From positions 1,501,992-1,565,991 of the forward strand of contig NZ_CP101322.1 in assembly GCF_024300625.1 (NCBI RefSeq): a stretch of DNA of 64,000 nt, written 5' to 3'. Shown piece by piece: positions 22,904 through 31,443 of the stretch. Source of the stretch: Halovivax gelatinilyticus. Lineage in GTDB: Archaea; Halobacteriota; Halobacteria; Halobacteriales; Natrialbaceae. The notes beneath the pieces are model-generated. The model ran no database searches. It saw nothing but the letters and a program-made list of their open reading frames with translations, and had not been told where the DNA came from. The position numbers were made by a program, and so were the translations under genes. Numbering within the stretch: position 1 is the first letter of the stretch; each line of letters starts with the position of its first letter.

Positions 22904-23157
22904 AATTAGACGTAGATACCGTTTTCAGGGGTAGTAGACGCGCTATATCTGCTGTCAATCGGTCGGATTCGACGACGCTCTGCTCCAGAAGAAAGAATAC
23001 TTTTATTAGGTAGGTCTTCATCTGGTTCGTCTGCATCAACTGGACGCGTCTCGACGTACGCTACGATTCGTTCGGAGGGGAGAACGCGTCAACCATACAA
23101 AATCGGGGAATGCGGACACTGCGTTCCAGATGAAACAGAGGGGTACACGTACGACGG
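22904..23157. other. Intergenic region upstream of orc1
   Basis: 254 bases, moderately AT-rich, with a TATA-like ATACTTTTATTA at 22999-23010 about 150 bases before the orc1 start and one ORB close to the start. A second, weaker origin site here is possible because in Halobacterium an origin lies directly upstream of the orthologous orc gene, but no inverted partner ORB was found. Confidence 0.5.
23124..23146 (+). repeat. ORB element just upstream of orc1
   Basis: TTCCAGATGAAACAGAGGGG followed by TAC. It sits 12-34 bases before the orc1 ATG, where a core promoter element would normally be, so bound Orc1 would be expected to affect transcription of its own gene. Confidence 0.75.
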
Positions 23158-24867
23158 ATGTCTGACGACGATCCACACGAGCCTGGTACGGCCGAAGCGG
23201 GTCGAACGACTCCCGGGTTTCGAGCGGAACTCGACGAGCGAGAGCTGAGCGATGGCGAGTCGAATCAGGGTCTGTTCGACGATCTGCTGAGCGGTGAGCC
23301 AATTTTCGAGAACAAAGAGGTTCTCAGGCCTTCGTACACGCCGCACGAACTCCCACACCGTACCGATCAGATCAACAAGATGGCGACGATCCTGGTCGCC
23401 GCGCTGCGCGGCGAGACGCCGTCGAATATTCTCATCTACGGAAAGACGGGGACGGGAAAGACCGCGAGCGCGAAGTTCGTCAGCCAGGAGTTAGAACAAA
23501 CCTCCACGAAGTACCGCGTGCCGTGCGACGTCGAGTACATAAACTGCGAGGTGACCGATACCCAGTACCGCGTGCTCGCTCAGCTGGCGAATACGTTCAT
23601 CGAGACGAACAAGGACCGCATCGACGACAGGATCGCCGAACTCGACGCGCTCAGAGAAGACGTCGAAGCGTACGAAGCGCAATCGGGCGAACCGTCTTCT
23701 AGCGAATCGGGCGAACGGTCGTCGAATGACGGTCGGGCGACGGGGCAGTCTCCAGCTGAAACGAAGGGGTCCGAATCCGGATCCGATCCCGGAGACAACC
23801 TCGAACCGGAATCCCACGATTTTGTCGAACAGAGCCCCGGAATCGACGATATTGCAGGTGAAACGGAGGGGTTCGATTCCGCCAACGCATTCGATGCCCA
23901 TCCGCTGGCCGAGACGGAGTTCTCGCGAGTCGAAGAGATCGACGACAGGATCGACGAACTCGAGGCCGATCGAGACGGTTTCGAGGACGTTCCGATGACC
24001 GGGTGGCCAACCGATCGCGTCTACAGCGTGTTCTTCGACGCCGTGGACTACTCGGAGCGCGTGGTCGTCATCATGCTAGACGAGATCGACAAGCTCGTCG
24101 AGAAGAGCGGCGACGATACGCTGTACAATCTCTCCCGGATGAACTCCGAGCTCGAAAATTCCCGGGTCTCGATCATCGGTATCAGCAACGACCTAAAGTT
24201 CACCGACTTTCTCGATCCGCGCGTAAAGTCCTCACTCGGCGAGGAGGAGATCGTCTTTCCACCCTACGACGCGAACCAGCTAAGAGATATCTTACAGCAC
24301 CGATCCGACGTCGCGTTCAAAGACGGCGTGCTCTCGCCTGACGTTATCCCGCTCTGTGCCGCCTTCGCCGCCCAGGAACACGGCGACGCGCGGCGGGCGC
24401 TCGATCTACTCCGAACTGCCGGTGAACTCGCCGAGCGTTCACAGACGGAGACGATCGTCGAAGAACACGTCCGACAGGCCCAGGATAAGATCGAACTCGA
24501 TCGCGTGGTCGAAGTCGTGCGCACGCTGCCGACTCAGAGCAAACTCGTCCTGTTTTCGATTATTCTACTCGAGCAACACGGCGTCCACAGCATCAACACC
24601 GGCGAGGTGTTCAACATCTACAAGCGACTCTGTAACGAGCTGGAGACTGACGTCCTCACCCAGCGTCGCGTAACCGACCTCATCAGCGAACTCGACATGC
24701 TCGGCATCGTCAACGCCGTCGTCGTTTCGAAGGGCCGCTACGGTCGAACGAAAGAGATCAGTCTCTCGGTTCCACTCGAAGAGACGGAAGTCGTGCTTCG
24801 ATCGGATTCGCGGCTGAGCGACATCGAAGACGTTAAACCGTTCGTACAGGCTCGATTCGACAACTAA
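23158..24867 (+). CDS. orc1: Orc1/Cdc6 replication initiator
   Basis: The product has 569 residues. AAA+ motifs are intact: Walker A GKTGTGKT (95-102), Walker B VVIMLDEIDK, sensor 1 ISND, and sensor 2 in the segment HGDARRALDLLR. The C-terminal winged helix (about 480-569) would contact the ORBs. Haloarchaeal relatives have a shorter region after the segment LALANTFIE-like helix; here about residues 165-260 form a Ser/Glu/Gly-rich insert, and two ORB-like DNA elements are written inside it. The start at 23158 is fixed by an in-frame stop at 23131. It is the likely initiator for the origin at 28.5-28.8 kb. Confidence 0.95.
   Translation: MSDDDPHEPGTAEAGRTTPGFRAELDERELSDGESNQGLFDDLLSGEPIFENKEVLRPSYTPHELPHRTDQINKMATILVAALRGETPSNILIYGKTGTGKTASAKFVSQELEQTSTKYRVPCDVEYINCEVTDTQYRVLAQLANTFIETNKDRIDDRIAELDALREDVEAYEAQSGEPSSSESGERSSNDGRATGQSPAETKGSESGSDPGDNLEPESHDFVEQSPGIDDIAGETEGFDSANAFDAHPLAETEFSRVEEIDDRIDELEADRDGFEDVPMTGWPTDRVYSVFFDAVDYSERVVVIMLDEIDKLVEKSGDDTLYNLSRMNSELENSRVSIIGISNDLKFTDFLDPRVKSSLGEEEIVFPPYDANQLRDILQHRSDVAFKDGVLSPDVIPLCAAFAAQEHGDARRALDLLRTAGELAERSQTETIVEEHVRQAQDKIELDRVVEVVRTLPTQSKLVLFSIILLEQHGVHSINTGEVFNIYKRLCNELETDVLTQRRVTDLISELDMLGIVNAVVVSKGRYGRTKEISLSVPLEETEVVLRSDSRLSDIEDVKPFVQARFDN
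23749..23770 (+). repeat. ORB element inside orc1 (first)
   Basis: TCTCCAGCTGAAACGAAGGG followed by GT. Nearly perfect ORB, located in the low-complexity insert of Orc1, where it encodes the peptide SPAETKGS. Confidence 0.7.
23852..23875 (+). repeat. ORB element inside orc1 (second)
   Basis: TTGCAGGTGAAACGGAGGGG followed by TTCG, same orientation as the first in-gene copy 103 bases away. It encodes AGETEGFD within the insert. Confidence 0.65.
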
Positions 24868-24881
24868 CAACACCGGCCGTT

Positions 24882-24905
24882 CGAACCCCTCCATTTCTAC
24901 TGGAA
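24882..24905 (-). repeat. ORB element between orc1 and signal peptidase genes
   Basis: On the minus strand: TTCCAGTAGAAATGGAGGGG followed by TTCG. It lies 15 bases past the orc1 stop, between the convergent orc1 and signal peptidase genes. Confidence 0.7.
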
Positions 24906-24974: not shown

Positions 24975-25868
24975 TCACGAACGACGAGCGATCGCTGCCG
25001 CCCCGAGCAGCGTCGCGACCAGACCGACGGTGAGCCCGCCGACGTCCGCAGGTGACTCCGTGCCGGGAGTCGCTTCGACGACGCCCGCCGAGAAGGTCTC
25101 GTCGACGGTCAGTCGAACGTATCCGAGCCACGGAATGCGGTACTTCGCTTTCCCCTCGATCCACTCGGGTTTGACGACGTCGGTGTCCGCACCGTCGTTC
25201 GCCGTGAGTTGATCGTAGCCACCGTTCGCGTCGCCGTGGGTGATGAAGCCGGCGTGCTGGGCCGGACAGGTCACGACTTCGTCGCAGGTCAGGCCGTTAG
25301 TGAGCGACGGATCGCCCCGATCGACCCAGTTTTCGCCCGGTTCGACCCAGAACGACGCGCGGTGGATCACCGGCGTCTGCGTCGCGGAACCGTCGGGTCG
25401 GAAGATGATCACGTCGCCGTCGTTTCCGAACGTCGAGTGATCGGTCACCGCGCCCGCCTCTTCGGTAACGACGCCGGTCCCGTCTACGTAGCCGTCACCG
25501 ACGAACCGGTCGTCGGCGACGACGAAAATCATGTCACCGCGGTGCATGTTGGGTTCCATGCTACCGCTCTCGACGGCGACCAGCGGGGGCCAGACGCCGC
25601 TGATGCCAAAGAGGATGAGCGCGATGAGCACGACGAGTCCGACGCTCGAAACCAGATCGCGCGTGTAGACGACAGCCGTCTCGTCGGTCGTGATGAACCA
25701 CCGGAGGATTCCGTCGGATTCGATGGACGGAGAATCGTCGGAGCGAGCGGTGTTCGATTCGGGCGGGCGGGTCGGCGGCCGGTCACCGACCGTCGGATCG
25801 GTCGTCGACTCGGTCGGGGAGCGACGGTCCGGGTCGTCACGAGGGCTCCCGGAACCGGGGTCTGTCAT
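24975..25868 (-). CDS. sec11: Signal peptidase I (archaeal Sec11 type)
   Basis: With the ATG at 25868 the product has 297 residues; a longer frame from 26039 exists, but it would overlap the polymerase promoter. A Pro/Asp/Ser-rich cytosolic tail of about 70 residues precedes a membrane helix (SVGLVVLIALILFGISGVW). The catalytic Ser is in ESGSMEPNM and the His that replaces Lys in archaeal and ER enzymes is in VIHRASF. A second helix near the C-terminus (VGLVATLLGAAAIA) would anchor the other end. It removes Sec signal peptides on the outer membrane face. Next to orc1 and the polymerase D small subunit it forms part of the conserved haloarchaeal origin neighbourhood. Confidence 0.9.
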   Translation of the reverse strand: MTDPGSGSPRDDPDRRSPTESTTDPTVGDRPPTRPPESNTARSDDSPSIESDGILRWFITTDETAVVYTRDLVSSVGLVVLIALILFGISGVWPPLVAVESGSMEPNMHRGDMIFVVADDRFVGDGYVDGTGVVTEEAGAVTDHSTFGNDGDVIIFRPDGSATQTPVIHRASFWVEPGENWVDRGDPSLTNGLTCDEVVTCPAQHAGFITHGDANGGYDQLTANDGADTDVVKPEWIEGKAKYRIPWLGYVRLTVDETFSAGVVEATPGTESPADVGGLTVGLVATLLGAAAIARRS

Positions 25869-26076
25869 TACATCTCCGTACCCTGGGAATGAAAATGAAC
25901 CTTCTGCTCTCGGCGCCGTAGAGAAAGCCGCACGACTCACCCGAGCGCGTTCCGTATCAGTTCCCCGTCGTCGGGCCCGGTCGTCCCGGCCTAACGCGAC
26001 TCGCCAGGATCGGTCGCCGCCGTCTCGAGGGTCGCCCATTCAATACGTTTTTGAGGGTTCTCGCGAATTCCGTTGT

Positions 26077-27654
26077 GTGCCACTAGAGGGGTCCGTCCGG
26101 ATCGTTCAACGACTGACGAGCCGCGGGTACAACGTCGAACGCGAGGCCGTGACGCTACTCGAAAACGCGTCGGATCCCGAGCGCGCCGTCGATCGGTTGC
26201 TGGAGACGGTTTCCGACGATGCGCTCGTCATCTCGATCGCGGACGTCCGGGCCATCCTCGAGCCCGATCGCGAGGAATCGTCGGGTGTCGACGCGACGGA
26301 CGAGGAGGTCAGCGCCGATCGTCGAGCCGAATCGACCAGCGGCTCCACTGACCCCGCTGTTTCAGGTGGAAAAACGCCGACCGGGCACGACAAATCGACC
26401 GGTTCTCCACCCGAAATGGAGGGGTTCGAGCGGTCTGGAGACGGTTCGGAGCGGTCCGTTCAGATCGACGGCGACATGACCGGCGAGTCCACCGGAACGG
26501 GCGAGTATCGAGATTTCGTCACCGTTTTTCGCGATCGCCTGGACCGACTGGGTTCGAAACTGCGCGGTAGGGTGAATCACCGACCGGCGTCGTCGATCGA
26601 ATCGATGCCGGGCGGGAGCGACGTCGCGATGGTCGGTCTCGTCAACGACGTTCGTTCGACGGCGAGCGGTCACTGGCTCGTCGAACTCGAGGACACGACC
26701 GGAACGTTTCCGTTTCTCGTGATGAAAGATCGGGAGTTCGCCTCGATGGTCGAGGAGTTGCTCTACGACGAGGTGATCGCGATGGAGGGAACGCTCGCCG
26801 ACGACTCCGGTATCGCATTCGTCGATTCTATCTACGTGCCGGACGTCCCCAGGACGCACGAACCGTCGTACGCGGATCGCCACGTCCAGGCGGCGCTCAT
26901 CAGCGACGTCCACGTGGGAAGCGACGAGTTCATGGAAGACGCGTGGAACCGCTTTGCCGACTGGCTCCACACCGAGGAGGCCCAGCACGTCGAGTACCTC
27001 TGCATCGCCGGCGACATGGTCGAGGGCGTCGGCGTCTACCCGAACCAGGACGAAGAACTCGAGATCGTCGACATTTACGAGCAGTACGAGGCGTTCAACG
27101 AGCACTTAAAGGCCGTCCCGGGCGACCTCGACATCGTCATGATCCCCGGCAATCACGACGCCGTCAGGTTGGCAGAACCCCAGCCAGGCTTCGACGAGGA
27201 GTTACGGGAGATTATGTCCGCTCACGACGCAGCAATCGTGAGTAACCCCTCGACAGTCGAACTGGAGGGTGTCTCGATTCTGCTCTATCACGGCGTCTCG
27301 CTAGACGAGGTGATCGCCGAGTTGCCGGCCGACGCTGCGAGTTACGACGAACCACACAAGGCGATGTATCAGTTGTTGAAAAAACGCCACGTCGCACCGC
27401 AGTTCGGCGGCCACACGCGACTGGCTCCCGAGGAACGAGATTACCTCGTCATCGAGGACGTTCCAGATATTTTTCACACCGGCCACGTCCACAAACTCGG
27501 ATTCGGAAAGTATCACAACGTGCTGGCGATTAATTCGGGATGCTGGCAGTCACAGACGGACTTCCAGAAGAGCGTCAATATCGATCCCGACGCCGGTTAC
27601 GCACCGATCGTCGACCTCGACACCCTCGACGTGACGGTCCAGAAGTTCAGTTGA
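26077..27654 (+). CDS. polB: DNA polymerase D small subunit (DP1)
   Basis: The GTG at 26077 (V-PLEGSVRIVQRLTSRGYN) gives 525 residues and matches the usual haloarchaeal N-terminus; a TATA-like CAATACGTTTTT lies 25-36 bases upstream. After an N-terminal helical domain and a Ser/Glu/Gly linker (about 65-150) come an OB-fold (about 180-265) and a calcineurin-like phosphoesterase domain with ISDVHVGSDEF, AGDMVEGVGVYP, IPGNHDAVR, YHGVSL and HTGHVHKLGFG, so the 3'-5' exonuclease site looks intact. It partners the large subunit DP2, which is not in the window, in the replicative polymerase. The linker DNA carries two ORB-like elements. Confidence 0.95.
   Translation: MPLEGSVRIVQRLTSRGYNVEREAVTLLENASDPERAVDRLLETVSDDALVISIADVRAILEPDREESSGVDATDEEVSADRRAESTSGSTDPAVSGGKTPTGHDKSTGSPPEMEGFERSGDGSERSVQIDGDMTGESTGTGEYRDFVTVFRDRLDRLGSKLRGRVNHRPASSIESMPGGSDVAMVGLVNDVRSTASGHWLVELEDTTGTFPFLVMKDREFASMVEELLYDEVIAMEGTLADDSGIAFVDSIYVPDVPRTHEPSYADRHVQAALISDVHVGSDEFMEDAWNRFADWLHTEEAQHVEYLCIAGDMVEGVGVYPNQDEELEIVDIYEQYEAFNEHLKAVPGDLDIVMIPGNHDAVRLAEPQPGFDEELREIMSAHDAAIVSNPSTVELEGVSILLYHGVSLDEVIAELPADAASYDEPHKAMYQLLKKRHVAPQFGGHTRLAPEERDYLVIEDVPDIFHTGHVHKLGFGKYHNVLAINSGCWQSQTDFQKSVNIDPDAGYAPIVDLDTLDVTVQKFS
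26350..26371 (-). repeat. ORB-like element inside polB (left)
   Basis: On the minus strand: TTCCACCTGAAACAGCGGGG followed by TC, which resembles the element upstream of orc1. It forms an inverted pair with 26403-26429. Confidence 0.55.
26403..26429 (+). repeat. ORB-like element inside polB (right)
   Basis: TTCTCCACCCGAAATGGAGG followed by GGTTCGA. Its right half equals that of the ORB after orc1 (GAAATGGAGGGGTTCGA). It encodes PPEMEGFE in the polymerase linker. Confidence 0.6.
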
Positions 27655-28462: not shown

Positions 28463-28490
28463 GCCCCCCACCCCTTGATTTCCACTGGAG
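28463..28490 (-). repeat. ORB with G-string, left arm of oriC
   Basis: On the minus strand: CTCCAGTGGAAATCAAGGGG, then TGGGGGGC. The extra run of G after GGGGT is the G-string extension described for haloarchaeal origins. It faces away from the AT-rich centre. Confidence 0.85.
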
Positions 28491-28518
28491 ACGAAAGAGA
28501 GCCCCTCCCTCCAACCGG

Positions 28519-28672
28519 CAATTGAATAGCGGAATCTATATATACATACATCCGAAACCATATCCGCAGCACTAGCAAATCAGGTTGTTGTGTTTGGATT
28601 TATTAGTTTAGGTCTAGAACGATACAGTGGCTTGTGAACAGTAGATAGTATCCTAGTAAGTGTTTGTTTCGG
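28519..28672. other. AT-rich segment, probable duplex unwinding element
   Basis: This stretch contains repeated TATA, ATTTATTAGTTTA and TAGATAGTATCCTAG text in an otherwise GC-rich sequence and lies between the two origin ORBs. Confidence 0.7.
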
Positions 28673-28794
28673 ATCCGTGCCATCGTACGTTTCAGGTGTA
28701 GCCGTCCTACCGATGGATTTGATCGATTTTAGCGAACAAATCCGTATACGCTCCGTCGCTGTTGTCCATCGATCGATCCCAAACGGGGTCGTCG

Positions 28795-28820
28795 TTCCAG
28801 TTGAAACGAAGGGGTGGGGC
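28795..28820 (+). repeat. ORB with G-string, right arm of oriC
   Basis: TTCCAGTTGAAACGAAGGGG, then TGGGGC. It is the best match to the general archaeal ORB in the window and mirrors the left arm, with the G-string again outermost. Confidence 0.85.
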
Positions 28821-29351: not shown

Positions 29352-29990
29352 ATGGGACTGTTAAAAGGACTCAAAGATAGTATCTCTCGGGCCACCGATC
29401 GTCTCTTCTCCGAACAGGAGCCGAAACGAATCGGCATTTACGGCCCCCCGAATGCTGGAAAGACGACGCTCGCCAACCGAATCGCTCGTGACTGGACCGG
29501 TGACGCCATCGGCACGGAGAGTCACATCCCCCACGAGACCCGGCGTGCTCGTCGGAAAGAGAACGTCGAGATCGAGCGAAACGGAAAGACCGTGACGATC
29601 GACATCGTCGACACGCCCGGTGTCACGACGAAGGTCGATTACGAGGAGTTCACCGACGAGATGAACAAGGACGACGCCGTCCGTCGCTCTCGTGAGGCCA
29701 CCGAGGGCGTCGCCGAAGCGATGCACTGGCTTCGCGAGGACGTAGACGGCGTCATCTACGTCCTCGACAGTGCGAAAGATCCGATCACGCAGGTGAACAC
29801 GATGCTCATCGGCATCATCGAATCCCGCGATCTGCCGGTTCTCATCTTCGCGAACAAGATCGACCTCGACGAATCGTCCGTAAAGCGAATCGAAGACGCG
29901 TTCCCGCAACACAAGACAGTCGCGCTCTCTGCGAAGGAAGGAGAGAACATGGACGAGGTCTACGACAACATCGCGGAGTACTTCGGGTGA
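29352..29990 (+). CDS. oapA: Origin-associated Era-like small GTPase (OapA/ArvA)
   Basis: A 212-residue GTPase from the ATG at 29352, which has GGAGG nine bases upstream. G motifs are complete: G1 GPPNAGKTT, G3 DTPG, G4 NKID and G5 in ALSAKEG. The start MGLLKGLKDSISRATDRLF is an amphipathic helix that could lie on the membrane. It heads the conserved three-gene set found beside haloarchaeal oriC1. The Haloferax GTPase of this operon (ArvA) is known to be needed for extracellular vesicle formation; a role in replication is suggested only by location. Confidence 0.9.
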   Translation: MGLLKGLKDSISRATDRLFSEQEPKRIGIYGPPNAGKTTLANRIARDWTGDAIGTESHIPHETRRARRKENVEIERNGKTVTIDIVDTPGVTTKVDYEEFTDEMNKDDAVRRSREATEGVAEAMHWLREDVDGVIYVLDSAKDPITQVNTMLIGIIESRDLPVLIFANKIDLDESSVKRIEDAFPQHKTVALSAKEGENMDEVYDNIAEYFG

Positions 29991-29994
29991 TACG

Positions 29995-30387
29995 ATGCCG
30001 AAAGCAACAAACCCAGACGCACCTGACGGCGTGCAGATCGACCTCGTGAGCGGTCAGCGCATGGAGGGCCTGACGAGCATGGAGAAGATCAGGCTCATCC
30101 TGGATGGCGTCCACGACGGAAACATCGTCATCCTAGAGGAGGGTCTCTCGCCGGACGAAGAGAGTAAACTCATCGAGGTGACGATGGCCGAGATCAGCCC
30201 GGACGAGTTCAACGGAATCGAGATCGAGACCTATCCGCGGTCGGATACGCGCGATTCGTCACTGCTCGGTCGCCTCGTCGGCGGCGAGAAGCCACAGGCG
30301 AAACTGACCGTCATCGGTCCGGCGAACCAGATCGAAACGCTCCACAAGGACGAAACGCTCATCAGCGCGCTCGTCTCTCGCAACTAG
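29995..30387 (+). CDS. oapB: Origin-associated protein OapB/ArvB (DUF2073)
   Basis: A 130-residue protein four bases after the GTPase stop, with GGTGA as a likely ribosome binding site. The phrases GVQIDLVSGQRMEGLTSMEK and VILEEGLSPDEESKLIE are typical of DUF2073. Middle operon member. Its biochemical role is not established; in Haloferax it belongs to the vesicle-forming set. Confidence 0.88.
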   Translation: MPKATNPDAPDGVQIDLVSGQRMEGLTSMEKIRLILDGVHDGNIVILEEGLSPDEESKLIEVTMAEISPDEFNGIEIETYPRSDTRDSSLLGRLVGGEKPQAKLTVIGPANQIETLHKDETLISALVSRN

Positions 30388-30388
30388 G

Positions 30389-31078
30389 ATGCCCCACCAG
30401 TGTACGAACTGCGATCGGCGGTTTCCCGACGGTTCGAAAGAGATGCTCTCGGGCTGTCCGGACTGCGGGGGCAACAAGTTTCAGTTCGCCCCGGTTCGAG
30501 AGTCGTCGTCGGCGGAACCTTCGACTGACGCGAACGAAAACAACGCACCACCCGAGTCGACCTCGACCGAGTCGACGGACACCACGCCTCGACGCGAGTG
30601 GCCCGAGACGGCCCGTCGACCGGCCGAGAAAGACCCGGATTTCAAACGCGAGCGCCGGACGGACGACGCGCTCGAAGACGATTTCGAGTGGGTCGAGGGT
30701 GACGAAGATACCGCCCAGGCCAGCGCCAGATCCGATGTCGTCGCCCCGGACGAGTTACCATCTCACACAGCCTCGACCGAGCCCGAAACGAACCCACCTG
30801 AATCGGTCGACGAGTCCGATGGCCGAGCCCGAGCGGACGACGTCGACGATCGCCCGGACAACGGCCGAGTCGTCAGCGAACCAGAAGCCGACCAGCCCTC
30901 GCTCGAGCAACTCCGCGAGGAACTGAACGAACAATTCGAGTCCATCAAGATCGTAAATCCCGGTCAGTACGAACTCAATTTGATGGAGCTCTACGATCGG
31001 GAAGAACACATCGTCTCGCTCCAGGAGGACGGACGTTACGTCATCAACGTCCCCGACTCCTGGCACAGCGACGAGTGA
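30389..31078 (+). CDS. oapC: Origin-associated zinc-ribbon protein OapC/ArvC
   Basis: This 229-residue protein starts one base after the oapB stop. It begins with a zinc ribbon (CTNC ... CPDCGG, residues about 5-28). A long acidic Ser/Thr/Glu/Asp-rich middle (about 35-165) follows and then a conserved C-terminal segment QLREELNEQFESIKIVNPGQ with YELNLMELYDRE. The layout is that of the OapC/ArvC family. The disordered middle is the variable part. Function unknown beyond its place in the operon. Confidence 0.88.
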   Translation: MPHQCTNCDRRFPDGSKEMLSGCPDCGGNKFQFAPVRESSSAEPSTDANENNAPPESTSTESTDTTPRREWPETARRPAEKDPDFKRERRTDDALEDDFEWVEGDEDTAQASARSDVVAPDELPSHTASTEPETNPPESVDESDGRARADDVDDRPDNGRVVSEPEADQPSLEQLREELNEQFESIKIVNPGQYELNLMELYDREEHIVSLQEDGRYVINVPDSWHSDE

Positions 31079-31332: not shown

Positions 31333-31355
31333 AAACCCCACCGTTTCAACTGCAA
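31333..31355 (-). repeat. ORB-like element downstream of oapC (left)
   Basis: On the minus strand: TTGCAGTTGAAACGGTGGGG followed by TTT. Inverted partner of 31419-31443, with only 63 bases between them. Confidence 0.65.
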
Positions 31356-31418: not shown

Positions 31419-31443
31419 GTTCCAATTGAAACGAGGGGGTTCG
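31419..31443 (+). repeat. ORB element downstream of oapC (right)
   Basis: GTTCCAATTGAAACGAGGGG followed by GTTCG. Strong ORB match. Confidence 0.7.

Follow-up and report, generated by a model that had tools for sequence, protein, structure and literature searches.

The orc1/cdc6 gene usually lies beside an archaeal origin, and this adjacency serves in origin prediction and is not required for ARS activity. In haloarchaea, which often use several origins, published descriptions have oriC1 fully conserved and directly adjacent to the initiator gene, and oriC1-orc7 of Halobacterium NRC-1 is an example of this conserved origin. A G-rich inverted repeat just inside the oriC1 ORBs acts as an enhancer and is absent from some species. 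Both the conserved haloarchaeal oriC1 (PMC3528665, PMC4010727) and the oriC1-cdc6A of Haloarcula hispanica (PMC3936714) contain inverted ORBs with outward extended G-strings and an AT-rich core, are flanked on one side by the gene for a GTP-binding protein (oapA), and have linked orc1, sec and pol genes. In oriC1 of Haloarcula hispanica, either ORB and both G-strings were found to be needed (PMC3936714).

The window, a stretch of 64,000 nucleotides (1501992-1565991 of one 3,700,630-base contig of Halovivax gelatinilyticus), was found to contain the same ORBs, G-strings, AT-rich core and linked genes, whereas the orc1-sec11-polB block was inverted, polB adjoined the origin and orc1 started 5.3 kb away. 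The segment 28463-28820 is very probably oriC1, the ancestral haloarchaeal chromosomal origin, which would be served by Orc1 in trans after the inversion of orc1-sec11-polB; the kind of element is known, and its arrangement is new.

Elements of the probable oriC1 segment

The segment was found to contain the following features:

28464-28490, − strand: left origin ORB with extended G-string, outward, CTCCAGTGGAAATCAAGGGGTGGGGGGC; one of two extended-ORB matches in the genome
28491-28794, no strand: AT-rich centre by GC content, presumed unwinding element
28554-28579, + strand: internal origin element, GAAACC-ATATCCGCA-GCACTAGCAAA, common to many oriC1 cores
28795-28819, + strand: right origin ORB with extended G-string, outward, TTCCAGTTGAAACGAAGGGGTGGGG; the other extended-ORB match in the genome

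The original prediction of two ORBs with outward G-strings around an AT-rich segment was borne out, as the pair was located and its spacer had the lowest GC content of the window. The 304 bp between the origin ORBs contained 46% GC versus 64.7% for the 64-kb window, the GC minima of the entire window for 100-, 150- and 300-bp stretches all fell between the two ORBs, and 28521-28670 was the most AT-rich 150 bp (36.7% GC). The 20-mer ORB was found five times in the window versus 0 matches expected from dinucleotide shuffles. Both origin ORBs were found to fit the extended halophile G-string pattern exactly, with the G-string at the outer end, and the left ORB differed from the consensus at 3 positions. 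The sequence CCCCTCCCTCC was present inside the left ORB and a GGGG run inside the right ORB, with no clear inverted repeat. Single-strand DNA folding gave a z of -2.64, the main stem being formed by the inverted ORBs, and a sigma-70/terminator scan and an Rfam search gave nothing useful.

The exact 20-mer ORB pattern had 9 matches in the 3.70-Mb genome, six of which were found in an 8.3-kb region that begins at orc1 and ends slightly beyond oapC. The extended pattern TCCANNNGAAAYNRRGGGGTRGGG, with at most 1 mismatch, had exactly 2 genomic matches, which were the two origin ORBs, and its reversed control had 0 matches genome-wide. Among the Natrialbaceae genomes searched, 59 of 61 were found to contain the extended pattern, most of them with exactly one forward and one reverse match about 230-360 bp apart, and the reversed control was found in none. 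The two genomes without exact extended matches were both Halovivax (G002 and G003), where the right ORB fitted with one mismatch and the left ORB contained a GGGGATGGGGGG string. Since most of the Natrialbaceae genomes searched contained one pair each, the extended ORB pair is a near-unique tag of oriC1.

The internal element has the general form GAAAC..TATCCGYA..CTAGCAAA and lies about 90 bp in from the outer edge of the ORB that is farther from oapA. Its strict 8-mer was found in 42 of 104 oriC1 cores, versus 0.008 expected per core, and in 39 of these 42 the element occupied one 10-bp offset bin. The element of the window was found at the same offset and in the same orientation as in the canonical oriC1 cores, which indicates that the orientation of the origin core relative to oapA was unchanged. 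The TATCCGYA...CTAGCAAA element is a possible analogue of the ucm of Sulfolobus oriC1, which is likewise a short conserved motif in the AT-rich region between two inverted ORBs, whereas the haloarchaeal motif has another sequence (PMC12141716).

Inversion of orc1-sec11-polB in Halovivax

The genes around the origin in the window were as follows:

23158-24867, + strand: orc1, ORC1-type initiator, in the inverted block (family model NF001625)
24975-25871, − strand: sec11-like signal peptidase gene, in the inverted block (match slightly below curated cut-offs)
26080-27654, + strand: polB (small subunit, DP1, of DNA polymerase II, PolD), in the inverted block (NF003116; start provisional)
29352-29990, + strand: oapA, small GTPase, remained beside the origin
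29995-30387, + strand: oapB (OapB, PF09846), remained beside the origin
30389-31078, + strand: oapC (OapC, PF09845), remained beside the origin

The neighbours named in the original prediction (orc1, sec11, polB and oapABC) were confirmed by family models, apart from the shortfall of the Sec11 match noted above; its distance of 3.6 kb between orc1 and the origin was correct when measured between the orc1 stop codon (24867) and the left ORB, as was its placing of the origin beyond polB from orc1, unlike in Halobacterium. The GTP-binding gene oapA adjoined the origin and the oriC1-type orc1 was in the same cluster. The nearest solved relatives of the Orc1 of the window were 2qby_A (Cdc6 homolog 1) and 2v1u_A, which show Orc1 proteins in complex with origin DNA.

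With oapA on the + strand, the usual order in the relatives was AspK−, GNAT+, DP1−, Sec11+, Orc1−, origin pair, OapA+, OapB+, OapC+, whereas the window and four other Halovivax genomes were found to contain GNAT+, Orc1+, Sec11−, DP1+, origin pair, OapA+, OapB+, OapC+, with AspK− beyond GNAT. The orc1-sec11-polB block was therefore inverted in place, which is the cause of the position of the origin beyond polB, with its two breakpoints in the origin-orc1 and polB-GNAT intervals. The orc1 gene was the direct neighbour of the origin opposite oapA in 96 of 104 origin pairs, some of these loci being one genome entered twice; in the Halovivax loci polB adjoined the origin in place of orc1. In the window, orc1 was not directly adjacent to the origin and polB was, and a small ORF was scored in the interval that separates polB from the origin. 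In a tree built on DP1, Orc1, OapA and OapB, the inverted state was one change and its clade had 100% SH-aLRT support. The inversion is a single event ancestral to Halovivax, and the origin remained with oapABC while orc1 was flipped away.

One locus named Halovivax sp. KZCA124 (L076) was found to contain the canonical order and clustered with Natronoglomus in the tree, and its genus name therefore looks wrong.

ORBs at orc1, in polB and after oapC

The window was found to contain further ORBs outside the origin segment:

23124-23143, + strand: single ORB with its end 14 nt upstream of the orc1 ATG, presumed to be autoregulatory
23750-23769, 23852-23871 and 24886-24905: ORBs in the orc1 coding sequence or just downstream
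26352-26371, − strand: left arm of the polB-internal ORB pair, in coding sequence
26405-26424, + strand: right arm of the polB-internal ORB pair, in coding sequence
31336-31355 (−) and 31420-31439 (+): inverted ORB pair downstream of oapC

The ORB at 23124-23143 was absent from the original prediction, which had otherwise described the origin plan with its ORB pair correctly. It contained neither an extended G-string nor an inverted partner and had travelled with orc1 in the inversion. In the relatives, an ORB ended 13-14 nt before the start of an orc1-like gene in 55 of the 71 distinct sequences found, and the relatives with this box were also found to contain the full origin pair further upstream. 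The box looks like an Orc1 autoregulatory site, because it is single, has no extended G-string and keeps the 14-nt distance to the ATG that is seen in most relatives. Since many haloarchaeal transcripts lack a leader, Orc1 bound to this box would sit over the promoter and repress orc1. No description of such autorepression was found in the literature searched. An ORB in the orc1 linker was found to recur across many relatives.

The polB-internal pair of the window (26352-26424) had a spacing of 53 bp and was weaker in three of the four other Halovivax genomes. An inverted ORB pair was found in the variable coding linker of 72 of 97 DP1 genes, which were not all independent, and the spacing was 56 bp in 65 of the 72 genes with both arms. 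The arms were found to contain the ORB-fitting rare codons GTT for 58/58 valines (background 10%), ACT in 59/59 cases (9%), GGA in 65/65 (13%) and CCA in 68/69 (12%), an agreement at fixed positions that is inflated since the arms were picked by motif match. The fixed spacing and inverted layout in a non-conserved linker are less exposed to this objection, and the 36-nt gap showed 35% identity between genomes despite its fixed length. The rare ORB codons and the fixed-length, non-conserved gap suggest that the polB pair is apparently maintained by selection on DNA. A protein-level cause was disfavoured, as the peptides encoded by the two arms differ (roughly PSVSTG versus SPVETKG) and the rare codons fit the DNA motif. 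The pair downstream of oapC was found in 5/5 Halovivax genomes with 80-84 bp spacing.

With chances somewhat short of even, the oriC1 pair, the autorepressing box 14 nt before orc1 and the selected polB pair could form a conserved haloarchaeal set of Orc1 sites that survives the flip in Halovivax, in which the polB pair may serve titration or control of the replicative polymerase. The oriC2D ORB cluster of Haloarcula hispanica and the DnaA boxes of bacterial datA and the dnaA promoter (PMC3936714) are likewise binding sites for an initiator that lie outside the origin proper and could serve to titrate it or to regulate its gene, whereas the candidate sites of Halovivax are a single box before orc1, a pair in the polB coding sequence and a pair after oapC. 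The ORBs before orc1 and inside polB, present across families, suggest a feedback circuit, and these boxes may be more interesting than the original origin claim.

Strand skew, alternative readings and lost adjacency

Skew was computed on a 25% sample of the genome, consisting of 15-kb stretches about every 60 kb and the window. Of the skew signal sought at the origin, GC skew and coding-strand bias showed no switch in this sample, whereas the cumulative AT skew peaked at 1.556 Mb, and the strongest of its 600-kb change points fell at 1.54-1.58 Mb, next to the origin (1.5305 Mb). The AT-skew range was matched by 23 of 5000 permutations, or by 9 of 5000 once coding-strand bias was removed; the sampled skew has no resolution at 5 kb, the positions at 23.0 and 28.4 kb being inseparable by it. 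AT skew gives moderate support for an origin in or near the window, because several skew measures were tried and only AT skew fits. Strand-controlled third-position GC skew had a significant overall range and was not used as support, because its turning point was at about 1.36 Mb. The claim that 28463-28820 is the chromosomal origin oriC1 was supported by its structure, its genome-wide uniqueness, the internal element, the synteny with oapABC and the nearby AT-skew change.

The active origin could instead lie directly upstream of orc1 (about 22.9-23.16 kb), the pair at 28.4-28.8 kb being a silent relic. This region contains the ORB at 23124-23143 and AT-rich stretches, and the known oriC1s adjoin orc1 (PMC3528665, PMC4010727); however, the extended G-string and inverted partner which that ORB lacks were both needed in Haloarcula hispanica (PMC3936714), relatives with the same box at the same distance also have a full pair further upstream, and the pair at 28.4-28.8 kb was found intact in all five Halovivax genomes after the inversion, which leaves this reading a slim chance. 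Slightly slimmer is the chance that the pair serves to regulate or titrate Orc1 in the manner of datA, with replication starting at another, unrecognised origin. ORB clusters can act negatively, as oriC2D does in Haloarcula hispanica (PMC3936714), and three further orc genes were found elsewhere in the genome. The pair is, however, orthologous to canonical oriC1 by its internal element, ORB layout and oapA synteny; two of the three other orc genes showed no AT-skew change, no ORB cores were found near any of the three, and a repeat search there gave only apparent coding-sequence noise. The third, at 1.85 Mb, was found to share the AT-skew slope, and further origins of another ORB type may be possible in this chromosome.

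Misassembly at repeats can create local inversions, but an artefactual gene arrangement is hardly credible, as the identical order was found in five Halovivax genomes, of which four are single-contig assemblies and the fifth is a draft.

An inversion in the Halovivax ancestor, with its ends between the origin and orc1 and just past polB, flipped orc1-sec11-polB, with the place and orientation of the origin beside oapABC kept and the orc1 start moved to its present distance. At the origin, ATP-bound Orc1 is proposed to bind the two inverted ORBs and G-strings, followed by the opening of the AT-rich centre between the ORBs, the loading of MCM and the departure of two forks in opposite directions. 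Since Orc1 would diffuse to its boxes, the origin should still fire.

The separation of oriC1 and orc1 is not peculiar to this genome, as a few other Natrialbaceae were found to contain the pair at 0.15-1.35 Mb from orc1. In G042 and in G009 (genus g6), the sole extended ORB pair was separated from orc1 by 158 kb and 1.35 Mb, respectively, and in two more genomes of genus g6 the distance was about 147 kb (G074) and about 234 kb (G187). In G011, the ORB pair was kept with orc1 and oapA was about 100 kb away. The cases of G042, G009, G074 and G187 together with Halovivax indicate that adjacency was lost more than once, which fits the finding in Haloarcula hispanica that ARS activity did not depend on a cis location of cdc6 (PMC3936714). 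In Halovivax the adjacency was broken by a short inversion, and with the origin kept and the adjacency broken genus-wide, the genus provides a natural experiment on the importance of linkage for control. Origin prediction limited to regions beside orc1 would miss or misplace the Halovivax oriC1.

Other rearrangements of the locus were also found. Two loci (L031 and L233, G024) kept the order of orc1, origin and oapABC, with sec11 and polB beyond oapC, as though the orc1-origin-oapABC block had inverted. In genus g54 (L209, L210 and L211, which are G096, G112 and G073), polB lay about 8 kb away and was reversed with respect to oapA, and orc1 remained adjacent to the origin.
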